Source of the DNA: Caldilinea sp. CFX5
GTDB lineage: Bacteria; Chloroflexota; Anaerolineae; Caldilineales; Caldilineaceae
DNA: 64,000 nucleotides
Direction: 5' to 3'
NCBI GenBank assembly: GCA_021405325.1
Contig: QWII01000050.1
Location: 36,851 to 100,850, forward strand
Of the stretch, positions 3,218 to 48,329 are shown piece after piece. Under the pieces are notes generated by a model. It made no database searches. It was not told the DNA's origin and saw only the letters and a list, made by a program, of their open reading frames with translations. The translations under genes were made by a program, and so were the position numbers. Every line of letters begins with the position of its first letter. The first letter of the stretch is position 1.

Positions 3218-3236
3218 CGTGTAGACAGGATGACCG

Positions 3237-3393
3237 GATGACAAGATGACAAGATGACAAGATGACAAGATGACAAGATGAAGGGATGGGTGAACTCGAC
3301 GATTATGTCATCCGGCGGGTGCCCACTGGGCGCGGTCACCCGGTCATCTTGTCATCCGGTCATTTTGTCATCCGGTCATCCGGTCATCTTGCC
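3237..3393. repeat. Octamer tandem repeat with inverted counterpart
   Basis: Five copies of GATGACAA run from 3237 to 3280, and degenerate reverse complements (GTCATCTTGTCATCCG type) run from about 3341 to 3393. The two halves could fold into a long imperfect hairpin in the 183-nt leader between the receptor gene and the first permease gene. This could lower permease expression relative to the receptor. Confidence 0.8.
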
Positions 3394-3415
3394 ATCTCCA
3401 CTCGGGAGTAGATGA

Positions 3416-15825: not shown

Positions 15826-15897
15826 AGCCTGCCAGTCGCGAAGCGACGGCTGAGGGTAGCCGTGGGTTTCAACCCACGATTGTTTTAGGAGACAAGC
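15826..15897. repeat. Two short hairpins before the deacetylase gene
   Basis: GTCGCGAAGCGAC and CGTGGGTTTCAACCCACG are self-complementary units in a 72-base spacer, followed by a TTAGGAGA ribosome binding site. A close relative of the second hairpin (AACGGGTTTCCACCCGTT) occurs at 21359-21376. Confidence 0.6.
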
Positions 15898-40018: not shown

Positions 40019-41941
40019 ATGAATCATCAAGCACGCTTTGTGTCGCCGGCCACTGGACGACGCTTCATTTTTTTGTTGCTGCTGGTCACTGCGTTTCTTC
40101 CCCTGGCGCCCACTCTCCACGCCCAGTCGCCCGGTTTTAAAGTTGCCAACGGTTTCGTAGCCGAAGTGGTCGTCACCAAACTGAAGATGCCCACGGCCTT
40201 TGCGTTTGGCCCCGATGGTCGTCTCTACATCACTGAAAAAGAGGGGCTGGTGCGCGTCGCCCAGAATGGCGTTCTCCAGAGCGAACCCTTTATCGATCTG
40301 CGCGCCGAGGTCAACGCCGTGGGGCAACGGGGTTTGTTAGCCATTGCGGCCCATCCCCGCTTCCCCGCCACCCCCTATCTCTATCTTGGTTATGTCTATG
40401 ACCCGCCCGAAGCCAAAAGCTATGATCCCAATGGCGCCCGTGGCTCGCGTGTATTGCGCATTTCCGCCAACCCCGCAAATTTGAATGTCCATCAGCCGGG
40501 TAGCGGTGTGGTGATCCTGGGGAACAACAGCAATTTTACCTATATTCCCAATCCCAATGCGTCTGAAAAACAACCTTTTGCTTGTGATAACGGGCAGGGC
40601 GGCTTTGTCAATGACTGTCTGCCCAATGACGGCCAGGTTCACGCCGTGGCCGACCTGGTCTTTGGCCGCGATGGCGCACTCTATGTTGCCAATGGTGACG
40701 GGTTGAACTACGGCGTCGGCAGCCTGCGCGCCCAGGCCCTCGACAGCCTGGCCGGCAAGATCCTGCGCATTGACCCGATCACCGGCGCCGGCTATGCCAA
40801 CAACCCCTTCTACGACGGCAACCCGCAGAGCAACCGCGCCAAGGTCTATGTTTATGGCATGAAGCACCCCTACCGCTTTGCCGTACATCCCACCACCGGT
40901 GAACTCTTTATCGGTGACGTGGGCAATTTGAAATGGGAAGAGGTTTCCCGCGCCGGCGCCGGCGCCAACTTAGGTTGGCCCTGTTTTGAGGGGAAGAATC
41001 CCAACGCCTTTGACCCGGTCTGTCAGCCGTTGCTCAACGGACAACAGCCGGTTGTGCATGGTTTCCACGTCTATCCCCACGAAGATGGCTGGGGCGCCGT
41101 CATTGGCGGCGACTTCTACACCGGCAACGCTTTCCCGGCTTGGATGCGCAACGCCTATTTCTATGGCGATTTTAACAAAGGCACGATCCAGGTGACGCCG
41201 GCCAATGCCGTCAACTTTACCGACTTTGCCACCGGCATCCCCGGCATTGTACAAATCAGCAGTGGCCCCGACGGCGCCATGTATGTTCTCTCGGTCACCA
41301 CCGGCAGCCTCTACCGCATTCGTGTCGGTAGTGAGCCGCCGCCGCCACCGGCCACCGCTGTCGCGACCCCTGCCCCCGGTTCAACCTCAACCGGTAACAA
41401 AACGCCCGCCGCGGCCCCAACAACTGCCCCCGCGCCAGCCGCGCCTAGTGGCGCCGGCGCCGGCAAAATTTTGCGTGAATGGTGGACCGGCATCGGCGGC
41501 AAGAGCGTGGCCGATCTCACCAACAGCAAAGATTTCAAAGAGAAGCCCGACGGCCAGGAAATGCTCACCAGCCTCGACGCACCCCGCGGCGCCGGCAACG
41601 ATTACGGCGCCCGCATCCGTGGCTACCTGATCCCACCCGTCACCGGCGACTACCGCTTCTGGATCGCCAGCGACGACGCCAGCCAGCTCTGGTTGAGCAA
41701 CGACGCCAACCCCGCCAACAAACGGCAGATCGCCGGCGTCAACGAGTGGACGCCCGCCCAACAATGGGATCGCCACCCGTTGCAGCAATCCGAGGTGATC
41801 CGCCTGCAAGCCGGTCAGCGCTATTATATCGAAGTGCTGCACAAACAGGGCGACCAAAAAGACAACCTCAGCGTCGCCTGGCAGATTCCCGGCAGCGACC
41901 GCCAAGTGATCAGCGGCCAATACCTCTCCCCGCCCGAATAG
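40019..41941 (+). CDS. Secreted PQQ-dependent sugar dehydrogenase-like protein with PA14 domain
   Basis: A 640-residue protein. A signal peptide (LLLLVTAFLPLAPTLHAQ) leads to a glucose/sorbosone dehydrogenase-like beta-propeller (about 40-435; AFGPDGRLYITEKEG, LLAIAAHPRFP, MKHPYRFAVHP, ISSGPDGAMYVL), a Pro/Ala/Thr linker (about 440-480), and a PA14-like carbohydrate-binding domain (about 485-640; GYLIPPVTGDYRFWIASDDA). It probably oxidises sugars at the cell surface using PQQ, with PA14 as the targeting module. Confidence 0.85.
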   Translation: MNHQARFVSPATGRRFIFLLLLVTAFLPLAPTLHAQSPGFKVANGFVAEVVVTKLKMPTAFAFGPDGRLYITEKEGLVRVAQNGVLQSEPFIDLRAEVNAVGQRGLLAIAAHPRFPATPYLYLGYVYDPPEAKSYDPNGARGSRVLRISANPANLNVHQPGSGVVILGNNSNFTYIPNPNASEKQPFACDNGQGGFVNDCLPNDGQVHAVADLVFGRDGALYVANGDGLNYGVGSLRAQALDSLAGKILRIDPITGAGYANNPFYDGNPQSNRAKVYVYGMKHPYRFAVHPTTGELFIGDVGNLKWEEVSRAGAGANLGWPCFEGKNPNAFDPVCQPLLNGQQPVVHGFHVYPHEDGWGAVIGGDFYTGNAFPAWMRNAYFYGDFNKGTIQVTPANAVNFTDFATGIPGIVQISSGPDGAMYVLSVTTGSLYRIRVGSEPPPPPATAVATPAPGSTSTGNKTPAAAPTTAPAPAAPSGAGAGKILREWWTGIGGKSVADLTNSKDFKEKPDGQEMLTSLDAPRGAGNDYGARIRGYLIPPVTGDYRFWIASDDASQLWLSNDANPANKRQIAGVNEWTPAQQWDRHPLQQSEVIRLQAGQRYYIEVLHKQGDQKDNLSVAWQIPGSDRQVISGQYLSPPE

Positions 41942-42129
41942 CGAGTCGCGGACTCGCCAAGAGCAAAACCGTCCGCTCCTGGCGAGTCCGTGACTCGCCC
42001 TGCCTGCCTTGCCTGCTCTTCGCGAGTCCGTGACTCGCCTTTGCCCCTCCCCCGTGCGCTCCCCGCGAGTCCGTGACTCGCCCTGTCCCCGCGTCGCCCC
42101 ATCCCGCTCCTCGCGAGTCCGTGACTCGC
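41941..42129. repeat. REP palindrome cluster, five copies
   Basis: GCGAGTCCGTGACTCGC palindromes at 41941 (variant), 41982, 42022, 42065 and 42113, each 17 nt, placed between the sugar dehydrogenase-like gene and the REP-associated transposase gene. Confidence 0.92.
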
Positions 42130-42143
42130 CCTGCTCCCCACAC

Positions 42144-42698
42144 TCACATCAACTTCCGCGCATCGCTAATCGGAATCACCGTCCGCTTATTCGCCAAATA
42201 ATACCGCGCACTTGACCACATATACTGCTCGGCCCGCTCCGCCAACTTCCAGCGTGGTTGCAGCGGATTGTGATGGATATACTCGATCTTCTGCCGCAGA
42301 AACCACGGCGTGAAGACATTCACTGCCTCATACTCCGTCTCCCACACCGAATGTTGTTGATCGTCCGGCGCCGCCGCTGCCAGAAACGCCAATGCTGCCG
42401 TGTTCTCTTCCGCCTCATAATGACGAATGATCAAATTCGCCGTCGCCTTCTTATACTCACGAATCACCGTAATCGGCGTATGCCCGGTACAGCAGCGCAC
42501 AATAAAATGGATATGGTTGGGCATAATCACAAAGGCGTACAGTTCATACTGCCCCAAAATGCGACCATTGTTCAAACAATCAACCAAGATCCGCTTGATC
42601 ACATCCCGCTGGAACAGATGTACCCGTTTGATGGCGCTGGTTGTAAAAAAGTAAAGATGGGTGGGGTCAATATGGACCGGCCATGTGGCGGAGGCCAT
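42144..42698 (-). CDS. REP-associated tyrosine transposase (RAYT, Y1/HUH family)
   Basis: A 184-residue transposase of the IS200/IS605-related TnpA_REP family. VIMPNHIHFIVR contains the HUH pair His62/His64; a tyrosine in REYKKATANL (Tyr83) is a candidate nucleophile. RAYTs cut and move single-stranded REP hairpins. Palindromes flank the gene on both sides (41941-42129 and 42749-42948), as expected of a REP-RAYT unit. The length is normal and the frame intact, so it may be active. Confidence 0.88.
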   Translation of the reverse strand: MASATWPVHIDPTHLYFFTTSAIKRVHLFQRDVIKRILVDCLNNGRILGQYELYAFVIMPNHIHFIVRCCTGHTPITVIREYKKATANLIIRHYEAEENTAALAFLAAAAPDDQQHSVWETEYEAVNVFTPWFLRQKIEYIHHNPLQPRWKLAERAEQYMWSSARYYLANKRTVIPISDARKLM

Positions 42699-42748
42699 AA
42701 CGCTTTTCCTTTCGATTTAGCAGATCCCTGCTCGCTTGTTTGCTCTGT

Positions 42749-42948
42749 GCGAGTCCGTGACTCGCCCTGGTTGCTCGACACTACCAACGTTCGGCACAAC
42801 CGGCTCCCCGCAAGTCCGTGACTCGCCCTGGTTGCTCGACACTACCAACGCTCGGCGTAATCGGCTCCCCGCGAGTCCGTGACTCGCCCTGCTAGCCCGA
42901 CACTACCAACGCTCGGCGTAATCGGCTCCCCGCGAGTCCGTGACTCGC
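42749..42948. repeat. REP palindrome cluster, four copies with a 61-base period
   Basis: GCGAGTCCGTGACTCGC at 42749, 42810 (one change), 42871 and 42932. All four starts are spaced exactly 61 bases, and the intervening sequence (CTCGACACTACCAACGCTCG) is also conserved, so the whole unit was amplified in tandem. Confidence 0.92.
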
Positions 42949-43117
42949 CTTACTCACCCCGCAAATATGCAGTTTGTTTGTGTTTGGTATTTCTGTTACC
43001 AGACTAACAGTATCACAGAGTGTAGCGTATTAGGACGAAATTGTAAAATATTAAGTAAATAGTAAGCCATTGAGATGTAGATCCTATCAAGATGAACACT
43101 GGCTAGTGGGAACCAGG
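42949..43117. other. AT-rich spacer upstream of the retroelement
   Basis: The stretch 42970-43075 is clearly richer in A and T than its surroundings. I see no gene and no clear hairpin here; short frames lack ribosome binding sites. Confidence 0.5.
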
Positions 43118-43303
43118 GCGAGTCATGGACTCGCGGGGAGCGGGAGTGGTGGCGAGTCATGGACTCGCCGGGAGCGGGAGTGGTGGCGAGTCATGGACTC
43201 GCGGGGAGCGGGAGTGGTGGCGAGTCATGGACTCGCGGAGAGCGGGAGTGGTGGCGAGTCATGGACTCGCCGGGAGCGGGATTGGGGCGAGTCACGGACT
43301 CGC
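43118..43303. repeat. REP palindrome cluster, six copies with a 34-base period
   Basis: GCGAGTCATGGACTCGC at 43118, 43152, 43186, 43220 and 43254, each 34 bases apart, and a variant (GTCACGGAC centre) at 43287. The intervening GGGGAGCGGGAGTGGTG is conserved. The cluster ends about 30 bases before the promoter of the template repeat. Confidence 0.92.
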
Positions 43304-43333
43304 CGGGCGCGGGGTCGTGAGGGATTGGTGGAG

Positions 43334-43363
43334 TTGGTGAAATTGTGCGGGCTTCGGTATAAT
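43334..43363 (+). promoter_or_regulatory. Promoter candidate for the template repeat and target gene
   Basis: TATAAT at 43358-43363 with TTGGTG (43334-43339) 18 bases upstream. Transcription would begin near 43370, right before the template repeat at 43385, and run on into the target gene at 43733. Confidence 0.55.
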
Positions 43364-43384
43364 GGACGTGGGTGGCGACCAGCA

Positions 43385-43456
43385 GGTGCGTTGTGCGTAC
43401 CGCAACAGGAACAACCCCAGGAACAGGAACAACAACGTCGGGTATCGCCTCGCCAG
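43385..43456 (+). other. Template repeat (TR) of a diversity-generating retroelement
   Basis: This 72-nt segment aligns without gaps to 46576-46647 at the 3' end of the target gene. Twelve positions differ; ten of them are adenines here (of 20 adenines), replaced by G or T in the target, and the other two are T to G and C to T. The TR keeps runs of AAC codons (AACAGGAACAACCCC), as template repeats do. The last 20 bases (GTCGGGTATCGCCTCGCCAG) are identical in both copies and would correspond to the homing-initiation region. Confidence 0.9.
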
Positions 43457-43732
43457 CACCTCTCCCAACAGGAAATCATGCTACGAGCGGAACTCGCCAG
43501 GTCAGAAATGTCGGCGCGTTACGGCCCGCCGGCCGCGATCAAACGAAGAGAGGTCCAGGACGCTGTCCCGGTCTGGTTGCGCAGGCCGCCAGGCCAAAGA
43601 AGAAAGGTCCGTTCGCCTTTCAGTAACCGTTGGGCGACCATCGGCGGACGGGCTGCTTTGGCTAACAAACACCATACTCTGCCGCTCGTAGCTGCGGCTA
43701 CGAGCGGCAAGTCGATACGATAGGAAGATCTC
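43457..43732. other. Leader between template repeat and target gene
   Basis: No protein is recognised in any frame. It ends in a perfect 12-bp hairpin (43681-43692 with 43697-43708, GCCGCTCGTAGC) just before the ribosome binding site AGGAAG. In known diversity-generating retroelements the region after TR is part of the structured template RNA, so a similar role is possible. Confidence 0.45.
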
Positions 43733-46663
43733 ATGAGCGACTCCCCCCAGCCCCCGACCCAACCGCCAACCACCATCGGCGGCAATGTCAATCTGCGTGA
43801 TGGGCATTTTATCGGGCGCGATTACAATCACCTGGAGGTGCATTTTAGCGGCGCTGAGTTGGAGTCGCTGTTCGGTCAACTGCTGCCCCTGTTACGCAGC
43901 GTCGATGGCCGTGTGGCTGATGGGGTTGTCAGCGCGCAGGGGCAAAGCCTGACGGTGACCGCGGCGCAAGCCGAAGCCCTGGGCCAATATTTGCTTACCA
44001 ACCGTCAGCGCGACCACAGCGAACGGGAACTGCACTACCTGGCCCGCCTCTGCATCGACCCAACCTACCAGCAGTGGCAGCGGCGCTATACGCCCCTTGC
44101 CGGCGGCTATCGCCCTGCGCCCCAACTCGACCCGCGCTTTAGCGAGATCCTCGTGCGCGGCGACGGCCCACAACGGCAGATCGAACGCATCCACCTGCCC
44201 GACATTCGCGATGCTCTGGACCGCCACGCCGCCGCCGTCCTCCTGGCCCAACCGGGCGCGGGCAAGACGACCGTCTTACAACGCCTGCTGCTCGATCTCG
44301 CCCTCCAACGGCTGCAAAGCCAACCGCCCAGCGCCGCTGCCAAACCGGCGCGCCTGCCCTTCTTCGTGCGGTTGGCCGCGCAACTGCCCGACGAAACTCC
44401 GCTCGCCTTTTTGACCCGCGCCTGGCAAGCCGCCCTGCCCGGCGCCCATAGCGATGCCGCTGTCGAGTTGACCCAGGCGCTCCAGCGGGGTGAACTCTGT
44501 CTGCTCTGCGACGCCCTCAACGAGGCGCGGCGCGACCGCTACGCCGAGCGCATGGCCGACTGGCGCGACTTTGCCCGCGACCTGCCCGCCGGCAACCGGC
44601 TGCTCTTTACCTGTCGCAGCCAGGATTATTATGGCGAATTGGCCGTGCAACAGGTGGAGATCGACCCGCTTGCGCCGGAACAGATTGCCGACTTCTGCCG
44701 CCGCTACCTGGATGAGGCGCGCGGGGCGCAGCTCTGGCAAACGTTGCAAAGTGACCACGCCGCGCTCCTGCCGCTGGCCGCCATTCCCTACTACCTGCTG
44801 ATGATCGTCGAAGTTTATGGCGCCGACGGCGCCTTGCCGACCCAACGCGCCCGCCTCTTTGAGCAATTTGCCCTGCGCCTGCTCCAACGGGAAGCCGAGC
44901 GCCGCCATGCCGACTGGATCGAACCGGCGGCGCAACATTGGCTGCTGGGTGACCTGGCCTTTGCCATGCAGGCGCTGGGCGAAGGCACCGAAGTGAGCCG
45001 CGATTGGGTGGTCAACACACTGCCGACCACGGTGACGCTACCCAAAGGCCCGCCTATCCCCACCCCGGCGGCAACGCTCTTGCGCCTGGGTTGCGCCGCC
45101 ACCCTGCTGAGCGAGACGCCCAGCGGCGGCTTCAAATTTGCCCACCATCTGCTCCAGGAATATTTTGCCGCCGAAGCGCTCTTGCGGCGGCATCAACAGG
45201 GCGCGGATCTGAGCGGCAACTGGCGCGTCCCCAGCAGCGTGCGCGCCATGCCGCCGGCGGAACGGGGCCAATGGGACCCGCTGCCCGGCCCACCCACCAG
45301 CGGCTGGGAACAGACAACCATCCTGGCTGCCGGTCTCTACCCGGCCTTAATCGACAGCGTGCTGCCGGTCAACCCGGCGTTGGCGGCGCGGTGTCTGCTG
45401 GCGCTTGGGACACCCCCACCCAGCCTCCCCCAGATTGGGGGAGGAGCCGTGGTCCCGCCGACGAGCTTACGGCGCCCTCCCCAAACTGGGGAGGGCGGGG
45501 GAGGAGCCGCGAACTCACCGGGAGGATCACGGCTCCCTCCCCAAACTGGGGAGGGCGGGGGAGGGGTTGGCCTTAGCACCCAACAAGCCTTGCTGGCCCG
45601 CCTGGGCAACGTCGCCATCCACCTGCGCAGCCGGATTGAGGCGGGGTTGTTGCTGGGCAAGGTGGGCGACCCGCGCTTCCCGCTCGAAACGATCAACGGC
45701 GTCCAGGTGATCCTGCCGCCGATGGTCAACCTTCCGGCGGCCACCGCCACCATTGGCAGCGGCTGGTGGGACCGCCAGGCGAACAGCGATGAAAAGCCGC
45801 GTCACACCGTCAACCTGGCTGCCTATGCCCTGGGGCGCTACCCGGTGACCAATGCCGAATATGCCTGCTTTATGGCCGCCGGCGGCTATGAAGAGGAACG
45901 CTACTGGACGGCTGGCGGTCAATATTGGCTCCGTGGCGAACCGGTGCCGGGGGAAGAAGACCCGGTCGATTGGTGGGTGCGCACCTGGCAACGACTTAAA
46001 GAGAAACCAACAGAAATTAATGATCGGGTCAAAAAGGCTTGGTTTACTGAACGTGATGCCGAAGTTTGGCGCGATTTGATTACATGGCCGGAAGAAGAAG
46101 CAGTAGCTGCATTTCGCAACATCTATCCAACCGGCCAGAAATACCGTGAGCCACGTTACTGGCACGATGATGCCTTTAACAACCCTAGCCAGCCGGTCGT
46201 CGGTGTCTGCTGGTATGAGGCGATGGCCTATGCCGCCTGGCTGGCAACCCTGACTGGCAACCCTTACCGCTTGCCCAGCGAAGCCGAATGGGAGTGGGGC
46301 GCACGGCGGGGGCGACGGCTCTATCCGTGGGGCAGTTTCTGGGATGCAACCAAGTGCAACAGCCTGGAAGAGCGCGTTATGCGCACTACGCCCGTCGGCG
46401 CCTACCCCCACGGCGCCACGCCCGATGGTCTCTTTGACCTGAGCGGTAATGTCTGGGAGTGGACCGTTTCGCTGAATAGTGCCTACCCTTACCAGCCAAA
46501 CCGCGAGCGCGACAACGCCGATGCCACCGGCCTTCGCATAAATCGTGGCGGAGCACGGGATTCCAGTCAACAGATGGTGCGTGGTGCGTGCCGCGGCAGG
46601 AGCGGTCCCAGGGACAGGAGCATCATCGTCGGGTATCGCCTCGCCAGGCTCCCTCCTTCGTAG
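43733..46663 (+). CDS. NACHT-type STAND NTPase with C-terminal formylglycine-generating-enzyme-like variable domain (retroelement target)
   Basis: A 976-residue protein. The N-terminus carries the GGNVNLRDGHFIGRDYNH motif seen in bacterial conflict-system proteins; a NACHT ATPase follows (Walker A AQPGAGKT, residues 172-179; Walker B LLCDALNEA with Asp260), then a helical region, a repeat-derived linker (about 562-611), and an FGE-sulfatase/C-type-lectin fold (about 655-976; DLSGNVWEWTV). Residues 948-972 are encoded by the variable repeat. Inferred role: an intracellular sensor whose ligand-binding tip is diversified. ATG 43733 follows AGGAAG. Confidence 0.88.
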   Translation: MSDSPQPPTQPPTTIGGNVNLRDGHFIGRDYNHLEVHFSGAELESLFGQLLPLLRSVDGRVADGVVSAQGQSLTVTAAQAEALGQYLLTNRQRDHSERELHYLARLCIDPTYQQWQRRYTPLAGGYRPAPQLDPRFSEILVRGDGPQRQIERIHLPDIRDALDRHAAAVLLAQPGAGKTTVLQRLLLDLALQRLQSQPPSAAAKPARLPFFVRLAAQLPDETPLAFLTRAWQAALPGAHSDAAVELTQALQRGELCLLCDALNEARRDRYAERMADWRDFARDLPAGNRLLFTCRSQDYYGELAVQQVEIDPLAPEQIADFCRRYLDEARGAQLWQTLQSDHAALLPLAAIPYYLLMIVEVYGADGALPTQRARLFEQFALRLLQREAERRHADWIEPAAQHWLLGDLAFAMQALGEGTEVSRDWVVNTLPTTVTLPKGPPIPTPAATLLRLGCAATLLSETPSGGFKFAHHLLQEYFAAEALLRRHQQGADLSGNWRVPSSVRAMPPAERGQWDPLPGPPTSGWEQTTILAAGLYPALIDSVLPVNPALAARCLLALGTPPPSLPQIGGGAVVPPTSLRRPPQTGEGGGGAANSPGGSRLPPQTGEGGGGVGLSTQQALLARLGNVAIHLRSRIEAGLLLGKVGDPRFPLETINGVQVILPPMVNLPAATATIGSGWWDRQANSDEKPRHTVNLAAYALGRYPVTNAEYACFMAAGGYEEERYWTAGGQYWLRGEPVPGEEDPVDWWVRTWQRLKEKPTEINDRVKKAWFTERDAEVWRDLITWPEEEAVAAFRNIYPTGQKYREPRYWHDDAFNNPSQPVVGVCWYEAMAYAAWLATLTGNPYRLPSEAEWEWGARRGRRLYPWGSFWDATKCNSLEERVMRTTPVGAYPHGATPDGLFDLSGNVWEWTVSLNSAYPYQPNRERDNADATGLRINRGGARDSSQQMVRGACRGRSGPRDRSIIVGYRLARLPPS
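45424..45555. repeat. Three palindromes inserted in frame in the target gene
   Basis: CCTCCCCCAGATTGGGGGAGG (45424-45444) and CCCTCCCCAAACTGGGGAGG plus one base (45475-45495 and 45535-45555, 60 bases apart). They encode the low-complexity linker (PPQTGEGGGGAANSPGG type) without breaking the frame. The family differs from the GCGAGTCCGTGACTCGC palindromes. Confidence 0.9.
46576..46647 (+). other. Variable repeat (VR) of the diversity-generating retroelement
   Basis: This is the 3' end of the target gene and the partner of the template at 43385-43456. It encodes VRGACRGRSGPRDRSIIVGY where the template would encode VRCAYRNRNNPRNRNNNVGY. Asn codons have become Gly, Ser, Gly, Asp, Ser, Ile and Ile, and a Tyr codon has become Cys, all by changes at adenine. 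The stop codon follows at 46661. Confidence 0.9.
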
Positions 46664-46992
46664 CCGTTGTCCGCTGTCCTTTGTCCCCTGTCCCCTGACC
46701 CTGATCATCCTGCGCGGCGTCACCCGCCTCGCCCCGAAGGGGCGTCGCCCATTTTTTTACAAGGCCACTCCGCTCCCGGCGAGTCCGTGACTCGCCCCGC
46801 TTCCTTAACCCTCAATCCCGCTCCCGGCGAGTCCGTGACTCGCCCTGACTTCCCAAACTCCAATCCCGCTCCCGGCGAGTCCGTGACTCGCCCTGACTTC
46901 CCAAACTCCAATCCCGCTCATAGCGAGTCACGGACTCGCCGGGAGCGGGCTGGGGGCGAGTCACGGACTTGCCGGGAGCGGGTATAGTGCGC
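46664..46992. repeat. REP palindrome cluster with a 48-base period
   Basis: This gene-free spacer of 329 bases between converging genes holds GCGAGTCCGTGACTCGC at 46779, 46827 and 46875 and its complement-centred variant at 46923, spaced exactly 48 bases, plus a one-base variant at 46956. The segment 46664-46770 shows nothing else. Confidence 0.92.
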
Positions 46993-47340
46993 TTACCCTT
47001 TGCGCCAGGCCCCCAACAGTTTGCCTACCTGGTTGAGCAGATTGGCGCCCTGTTCATATTGCTTAGTGTTCAAACAGCGCAACTCATGGGCCAGGCGCAG
47101 TTGGAGACGCAGCGTATCCAGCGTTACGTCGGCTTGGAGCAATGTTTCGGCGCGGGCGGGGCCGGTTACTTTGCGGGCGCGGATCAACTGGCTGTGGCAG
47201 AGGAAGGCGCTATCCAACAGCCGGCTGCCCAGTAGAAAGCGTTGGGCGCGCGGAAACTTTTCGACACAGGGGATCAGCCAGGCGGTGAAGTCATAGAGCC
47301 GGGCAAAGACCGGCGCTTCGGTCATCGGTTGGGTGGTCAT
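46993..47340 (-). CDS. avd: Avd-like accessory protein of the diversity-generating retroelement
   Basis: A 115-residue all-helical protein (FARLYDFTAWLIPCVEKFPR, then RFLLGSRLLDSAFLCHSQLI and LRLQLRLAHELRCLNTKQYE). These are hallmarks of the Avd four-helix protein, which forms a pentameric barrel and hands template RNA to the reverse transcriptase. Its start overlaps the end of the reverse transcriptase frame by 4 bases, so the two genes formed an operon. The frame is intact. Confidence 0.88.
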   Translation of the reverse strand: MTTQPMTEAPVFARLYDFTAWLIPCVEKFPRAQRFLLGSRLLDSAFLCHSQLIRARKVTGPARAETLLQADVTLDTLRLQLRLAHELRCLNTKQYEQGANLLNQVGKLLGAWRKG

Positions 47341-48007
47341 AAGACAATCTCCTGTAACAAGCGGCGGCGCAATTGATAGGTGTCGCCGTGGCTGGCGTGC
47401 GCAATCCAGGCGACGAGGGCCTGGCGAAAACGGGCCGCGCTCATCTGCCCGGCCTGGTAGGCTTTGCGGTAGCGTTGCAGCCGTTGGCGCGCCAGCCGCA
47501 CATTGTCGCTACGCAGCCGGCGATGGGTGGGGAAGAGGCGAAAGCCCAGAAAGGGGATGCCGGTGTGCGTGGGGTAGACGACGGATCGCCGCCAGTTGAG
47601 GCAGAGGCGCAGGCCGGCCAGGTGATCCTGCACGGCTGCTTTCCAGGCGTGCAACTGCGCTTTGTCGTGGTGAAAGAGCAGAAAGTCATCGGCATAGCGC
47701 AAGTAGGCGCGACACTTCAGATGGGGTTGATCACGGCGCAGAGGGCGTGGTGGACGACGCGATCGGGAAAGGGGGCGGCGCTGATCAGGCGCAGTTTGCG
47801 TTCGCGGATGTAGAAATTGCGGTAGGAACCGGGGCGGTAGCTGCGCACTTGTAAGTCGCTCTGGAGTTGGAAGAGGTTGGCTTCCAGGTCAACTTCAAAG
47901 GCGGCGACTTCGGCGTGGTCCCGTTTGCCTTTACGCGCTTTGCGAAAGGCGGTGTGGAGGTTGGCGAAGGCGGCGATGGTGGGGTAGAGGTTGCGATAGC
48001 TTTGCAT
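47337..48007 (-). pseudogene. Diversity-generating retroelement reverse transcriptase with internal deletion
   Basis: The N-terminal part (48007-47717; RNLYPTIAAFANLHTAFRKA and FPDRVVHHALCAVINPI) matches the start of retroelement reverse transcriptases. The frame then stops, and a second frame (about 47712-47337) resumes with LKCRAYLRYADDFLLF, GIPFLGFRLFPTHRR and the C-terminal helices. The join falls directly between INPI and LKCRAYLRY, removing an estimated 140-160 residues, including the metal-binding Asp of the FPSIDH region and the SQ motif, and shifts the frame. YADD and the thumb remain. Confidence 0.88.
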
Positions 48008-48329
48008 TGGGATCCTTCTTGTTGGTTGTGATTGATGAAGCCGGGGCGAGTCACCGGTTGCCTTTTAGGCGCGCGGGGAGCGGGGAGTGGGTTAGTGTGG
48101 CGGGGAGCCGGGGCGAGTCACGGACTCGCGCAGAGCGGGTGCGGCCGGGAGCGTGCGTGGCACTGACCACGATGTCTCGCTTTACACGTCGATCAACTGG
48201 TCAGTGCCGCGCACGCGGATTCGGCGATTGGTCAGTGCCGCGCACGCGGATTCGGCGATGCGATGGGTACGGCAAACCCGCGTGCGCGGCACTGACCAGC
48301 GACTGGTAGGATCGCAGAAACGCGCTTGG
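48008..48329. repeat. Mixed repeat region with a GGTCAGTGCCGCGCACG family
   Basis: One REP palindrome (48113-48129) is followed by five copies of a different repeat: GTGCGTGGCACTGACCA (48153), TGGTCAGTGCCGCGCACGCG (48198 and 48229, 31 bases apart), its inverse (48279-48298), and a variant at 48327. Direct and inverted orders alternate. No gene is seen. Confidence 0.8.

Follow-up and report, generated by a model that had tools for sequence, protein, structure and literature searches.

A stretch of 64,000 nucleotides (nt) from Caldilinea sp. CFX5 (contig QWII01000050.1; hereafter the window) carries a gene for a NACHT protein whose 3′ end is repeated, with base changes, upstream of the gene. 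Does this repeat pair belong to a diversity-generating retroelement (DGR), and can the element still vary its target? A preliminary description, made from the sequence alone, had answered yes to the first question and had suggested a receptor of evolvable specificity. The analysis reported here showed that the locus is a genuine DGR, and that the element is degraded and not autonomous. It upheld that the variable repeat arose through a DGR and that the target is a NACHT protein with a lectin-like tip. Evolvable specificity at the present day was not upheld, because the local reverse transcriptase (RT) is broken.

The repeat pair and its NACHT-lectin target

The template repeat (TR) and variable repeat (VR; Table 1) lie where the preliminary description had placed them, a 976-residue NACHT/FGE gene having the VR at its 3′ end, and a recount gave the same figures: an ungapped 72-nt alignment with 12 differences, which fall on 10 of the 20 template adenines and 2 of the 52 other bases (one-sided Fisher p = 1.65e-5). 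Nine of the ten adenine changes are in AAC (Asn) codons, the codons already named as the main site of change, and one is in TAC; counted by codon, the VR differs from its own template at nine, eight with adenine and one (TGT) without. The final 21 bases of TR and VR are identical, as is characteristic of DGRs. The bias, together with the Avd gene and RT pieces next door, confirmed that the adenine pattern is the mark of a DGR. A scan of the whole window for adenine-biased repeat pairs returned this pair and one other (3221-3396); the latter is a simple GATGACAA-type repeat and was rejected as a second DGR. No match to the TR region was found among phage records.

The adenine changes comprise eight A>G, two A>T and no A>C. 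In 47 other DGR pairs, 289 of 733 changes are A>G (one-sided p = 0.011 for 8/10 against these), but the G excess was rejected as proof, since it was noticed only after the fact and comparable shares occur in other single VRs (14/19 in locus L003, 9/12 on contig C6 of genome G030). These 47 pairs, not all hand-checked, came from 39 self-chosen loci among 80, of which 31 yielded a pair (the self-overlapping L039 failed the filter), and from genomes G001 and G030 (four pairs); some rows, e.g. the second ones of L016 and L019, seem to be the same pair read in reverse. Of the interior non-adenine positions of the 47 pairs, 55 of 2602 are changed, and the two non-adenine differences in the window VR, one of them close to its 5′ edge, were therefore not accepted as proof of drift.

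In the target, a NACHT NTPase is fused to the VR-bearing lectin domain, the arrangement of a NACHT-lectin DGR sensor, and the VR sits at the 3′ end in a predicted C-type-lectin-like fold, as in DGR targets. In the predicted structure (mean predicted local distance difference test score 80.3; NLR and FGE-type families considered), the NACHT part matches NLRC4 and NLRP3, which are animal NOD-like receptors (NLRs), and the variable domain matches TvpA. Pfam matches and predicted fold thus agree on a NACHT target with a lectin-like variable tip, as first described. Judged by fold and homologues, the protein is most likely an NLR-like receptor whose lectin tip would bind a ligand and trigger the NACHT core; published relatives, and effector-type domains in a minority of homologues, suggest an immune or self-recognition role. 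The target had no match in PADLOC. Two 60-nt repeats, 80% alike, are present in frame within the gene (45437-45556), in a low-confidence linker (about residues 561-609) that is variable among close homologues.

Variation among homologues was concentrated at the template-adenine codons. The VR pattern fits 89 of the 120 listed target homologues (of 189), and at pattern-free positions the mean entropy was 2.95 bits for the 11 template codons with adenine versus 1.19 bits for the five without (2.77 versus 0.79 bits when pattern-fixed positions are included). One adenine-free codon, GTC, was as variable as the adenine codons (3.19 bits); the templates of relatives differ there. Homologues P0122 and P0123 differ from the window template at nine and six codons, respectively, all of which contain adenine.

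The broken reverse transcriptase and its relatives

The Avd gene is intact and scores above its family cut-off, as expected of a DGR accessory protein. A complete DGR-type RT is lacking at the locus: between its two pieces, residues 97-224 of the RT homologue P0001 (128 residues, core included) have no counterpart. In intact relatives the missing segment contains QCDVHQFFPAID and GLPVGNLTSQ, motifs that we take to be catalytic. The gap amounts to 385 bases against each of the loci L144 (G001), L145 (G043) and L143 (G030), a length that also shifts the frame; no insertion is present at the junction, and the N-terminal frame runs into a stop there. No second RT matching P0001 was found within the 64 kb. 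With the local RT broken, evolvable specificity is not supported in cis, and any present diversification would depend on an RT supplied from outside the locus. Avd, TR and a structured RNA (see below) are all intact. Two identical 31-nt tandem repeats were observed upstream of the RT gene (48198-48259).

Two RT homologues, P0001 and P0002, are complete. A third, P0003 (228 aa), has no residues in columns 86-208 of the RT alignment; this gap has other endpoints than that of the window but overlaps it, so P0003 seems to have undergone a separate loss within the core, although its gap could likewise be an artefact. In P0041 the frame shifts close to the C terminus, possibly through a sequencing error. 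The protein P0166, for which a contig of equal length (56309) is given, has an aberrant C terminus. RT relatives were found in 40 plasmid records (best 49%), and viral contigs yielded a single distant one (34%).

In a set of 46 genomes from the family to which G001 belongs, P0001 had matches in 18 at E <= 0.001 (many of them weak) and in nine at E <= 1e-40; in three genomes the RT lies beside a close NACHT-FGE homologue. Contig C348 of G001 is complete, with NACHT gene, RT, Avd, TR and RNA on one strand, and its repeat pair is changed at 16 of 21 adenines and at none of 50 other bases. The RT of G030 is divided between the ends of two contigs, C183 and C282, which we infer to be adjacent; on C282 the RT end is accompanied by Avd, TR, RNA and a second target. 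Three VRs were found in G030, all explained by the C282 TR (10, 12 and 12 of 21 adenines and 0/51 other bases changed). One of them (12/21), on contig C6 (L146:8536-8607), belongs to a remote NACHT-FGE target, which means that remote targets exist in the family. The products of the G001 and G030 templates differ from VRCAYRNRNNPRNRNNNVGYRLA by one and two residues, respectively.

Other members are less complete. On contig C106 of G043 (L145 about 6350, minus strand), RT and Avd are intact and the TR, read by eye, seems cut off after its first bases, possibly an assembly effect. Contig C140 of G023 (L151:5692-6722) carries a DGR RT whose reading passes from one frame to another near residue 140, together with Avd and two VRs of one template. 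The stretches fetched around close NACHT-FGE homologues of G044, G026, G023, G031 and G030:C6 yielded no match to RT or Avd; as some of these stretches are near contig ends, this does not indicate a loss. Five of the 46 genomes (G001, G023, G024, G031 and G034; those of G023 partial) had at least two RT matches at E <= 1e-40. The further RTs of such genomes are mostly 50-58% identical to P0001, and templates vary between loci.

A structured RNA 3′ of the template

Downstream of the TR, the sequences of the window, G001 and G030 can be aligned for some 120 bases. In this alignment two helices, with 18 pairs kept in all three sequences, show double-sided changes in six pairs, a level of covariation reached in none of 500 shuffles of this three-sequence alignment. 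The structure came from the alignment, single-sequence folding of the TR RNA being uninformative (z -0.49). Run on 94 sources, an RNA model of the three sequences (R1) matched 18 times at E <= 1; in 22 further short loci it matched six times (four distinct places, one counted before). A second model (R2), built from the 18 matches, matched 43 times at E <= 0.1 when run on those 94 sources. In loci L001-L080 all 38 R2 matches are on the RT strand, 13 of these having been used to build the model. An adenine-mutated template was found 54-168 bases upstream of the RNA match in 33 of the 43 cases, the distance being measured from the best 45-base template window; one of the other ten had a template too weak to count, and for nine none was found. 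The same test at 168 random places in R2-matched loci gave four positives. In the 43-sequence alignment 85.7% of cells pair, and double-sided changes occupy 332 cells; shuffled alignments gave 111.7 and slid ones no more than 85. The alignment was fitted to the structure and is thus biased towards it. By the names in their records, the matched loci are mostly from Chloroflexota; others include Chromatiaceae, Rhizobium, Bacteroidales and KSB1 bins.

The sensitivity and specificity of R2 are limited. It had no match in eight of the 30 loci among L001-L062 with an accepted TR/VR pair (L016, L026, L036, L037, L049, L052, L057 and L062), and under stricter filters five of the 46 family genomes matched, the RT-bearing G043, G023, G024, G027 and G031 not among them. 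Genome G026 has two RNA copies, 89% identical (L185:152-274 on contig C349 and L186:1408-1531 on contig C504); neither contig has a TR/VR pair or an RT or Avd match, and the genome has no match to P0001. These template-less copies count against a strict DGR specificity of the model.

According to a study of the Bordetella phage BPP-1 DGR, its spacer folds and recruits RT-Avd (PMC12875486), and by analogy the window element may be the counterpart of this spacer; R2 found no convincing match in the BPP-1 spacer itself. Rfam 15 had no match in the segment, and no published description was met in a literature search outside of which most subscription journals lay, which leaves novelty unproven. 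A broader proposition, to which we give even chances, is that the RNA represents a conserved family of structured RNAs outside Rfam 15 that a large lineage of cellular DGRs, spread over several phyla, has in common, and that RT-Avd would grip and prime from. Such an RNA would mark DGR templates, including those stranded, like the one in the window, when their RT was lost, and repeat arrays in the host clade would repeatedly break the machinery, locking a chosen sensor tip.

Gene order and the present state of the locus

Table 1. Coordinates of the DGR components and adjacent features in the window
Feature	Position	Strand	Details
Template repeat (TR)	43385..43456	+	72 nt; codes VRCAYRNRNNPRNRNNNVGYRLA
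Variable repeat (VR)	46576..46647	+	3′ end of target gene
Target gene, NACHT + FGE/C-type-lectin	43733..46663	+	976 aa; intact open reading frame (ORF)
NACHT domain	44246..44716	+	residues 172-328; PF05729, 29.2 bits (cut-off 26.7)
FGE-sulfatase/C-type-lectin-like domain	45716..46648	+	residues 662-972
Conserved structured RNA 3′ of TR, probable template-RNA spacer	43536..43660	+	covariation; model R2, 90 bits
Avd accessory gene	46993..47340	-	115 aa, intact; NF033474, 91.5 bits (cut-off 80); PF22296
RT gene, both pieces	47337-48007	-	
RT, C-terminal piece	47337..47720	-	has YADD; 95% identical to P0001 residues 225-351
RT, N-terminal piece	47717..48007	-	96 aa, then stop; 91% identical to P0001 residues 1-96
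Array of repetitive extragenic palindrome (REP)-like elements 5′ of TR	43117..43313		6 palindromes
REP-like array between target and Avd	46770..46982		5 palindromes
REP-like array adjoining RAYT-like gene	42749..42949		
Single REP-like palindrome upstream of RT	48112..48130		
REP-associated tyrosine transposase (RAYT)-like gene	42144..42698	-	NF047646, 75.1 bits (just below cut-off 80); PF01797

The REP-like arrays are located at the module borders of the DGR. With up to two mismatches, GGCGAGTCNNNGACTCGCC occurs 21 times in the 64 kb scanned, always within 41940-48130 (0.04 copies expected). By their central bases, three of the five palindromes of the 46770 array are opposite to the six of the 43117 array. 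The TR and target are on the strand opposite to RT-Avd, and this block appears inverted; turning it back would yield the order RT-Avd-TR-RNA-target, which is that of G030 C282. Outside the DGR, a match to the Acido-Lenti-1 RNA was observed at 15834-15879 (minus strand).

These data are probably best explained by a once-working DGR that has since lost its RT core, whose TR-target block was inverted and whose NLR-like sensor is frozen in cis, a reading we hold with considerable confidence. In the working form, by analogy with characterised DGRs, a template RNA comprising the TR and the structured 3′ element would have been bound by RT and Avd and copied by the RT with errors at adenines, and the complementary DNA would then have replaced the VR at the 3′ end of the sensor gene; past activity follows from the adenine-biased VR. 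Later the local RT would have lost its core by the internal deletion, and the TR-target block would have been flipped, probably by recombination between the inverted REP-like arrays. The sensor gene, still intact, would have kept its last variable tip in cis. The sensor is probably frozen, or else served by an RT elsewhere.

Several points weigh against this explanation. The RT deletion may stem from misassembly or represent a minority variant, the two non-adenine VR differences could be drift, and the intact Avd, TR and RNA would be consistent with their still being used by an RT acting in trans. The inversion is read from gene order alone, and the window target is closer to the first-target type of the relatives than to the second. 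As for the receptor, the part N-terminal to NACHT has no Pfam match and no effector-type domain was found in the protein; a precomputed Pfam column gives such domains for only seven of the 120 listed homologues (CHAT in two, Mrr_cat in three, TIR and GIY-YIG in one each). When six homologues chosen for extra domains were rescanned, two had CHAT (a weak match in one of them), three had a single domain of another kind (TIR, Mrr_cat or a C-terminal GIY-YIG), and the last had TPR/AAA repeats; the CHAT, Mrr_cat and TIR domains (four homologues) are N-terminal to NACHT.

That the locus still diversifies, through an RT encoded elsewhere in the genome and acting on the local TR RNA, perhaps with the local Avd, is compatible with the RT lesion and is a possibility we consider real although unlikely. 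The remote G030 C6 target, the five genomes with several RTs and the intact components of the window speak for it, whereas the 64 kb yielded no second match to P0001, the additional RTs mostly have 50-58% identity to P0001 and templates differ among loci. We think it rather improbable that the deletion is an assembly artefact hiding an ordinary complete DGR. Metagenome-derived contigs can misassemble, and the defects of P0041 and P0166 indicate that errors or lesions occur in such data; the window lesion, however, is a clean internal deletion and not a homopolymer slip, the gap of P0003 overlaps it in the core (with the same caveat of a possible artefact), and at published DGR loci degraded RTs occur beside intact ones within one population (PMC10907252). 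Finally, the TR lies inside a mechanical ORF of 109 aa and so might be a gene fragment, with the repeat pair a product of chance or of ordinary duplication of an Asn-rich lectin tail. This reading can be practically dismissed: it is refuted by the adenine bias, the adjoining Avd and RT pieces, the covarying RNA shared with other DGR templates and the concentration of homologue variation at template-adenine codons.

With the frozen-sensor reading, a degraded DGR beside an intact NLR-like target would let one see in nature if a hypermutated immune-type sensor is worth keeping after its mutation has stopped. The RNA element gives a sequence-and-structure handle on where the template RNA of cellular DGRs lies and on its possible recognition by RT-Avd.

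Comparison with known systems

The sensor of animal NLRs consists of leucine-rich repeats; the window protein has an FGE/lectin domain in this role and is 15% identical to NLRC4 and NLRP3. To the NACHT antiphage protein EruA (NF058535) it has a 52.8-bit match over residues 250-489, far below the cut-off of 1000 bits, and so it is not a member of that family. The solved chain of Treponema denticola TvpA (PDB 2y3c; 278 residues) aligns only to residues 648-974, and unlike TvpA, the window domain is fused to a predicted NLR-like core. The BPP-1 DGR (mtd-avd-TR-spacer-brt) likewise has TR, VR, RT and accessory gene, and a spacer 3′ of the TR that is reported to fold (PMC12875486); its target is a phage tail protein and its gene order differs.

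FGE-type domains and DGRs have been tied to conflict systems (Kaur et al. 2020; PMC7159879), and NACHT-lectin DGR targets in multicellular bacteria have been published and proposed as antigen sensors (Dore et al. 2024; PMC10907252), a proposal that the latter paper itself calls untested; the sensor idea is thus not new. In Thiohalocapsa PB-PSB1 DGR 3 and the clade 5D loci of that study, NACHT is likewise fused to a diversified C-terminal lectin/FGE domain, targets may be remote, and arrays resembling miniature inverted-repeat transposable elements replace or degrade RT or TR, intact and degraded RT variants being mixed within one population. The window differs from these loci in its host (Caldilineaceae), in an internal RT deletion without junction insertion and in a TR and target opposite to RT-Avd. 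What it adds is the probably frozen state of this sensor copy and the RNA element, of which the RNA is the most novel part.
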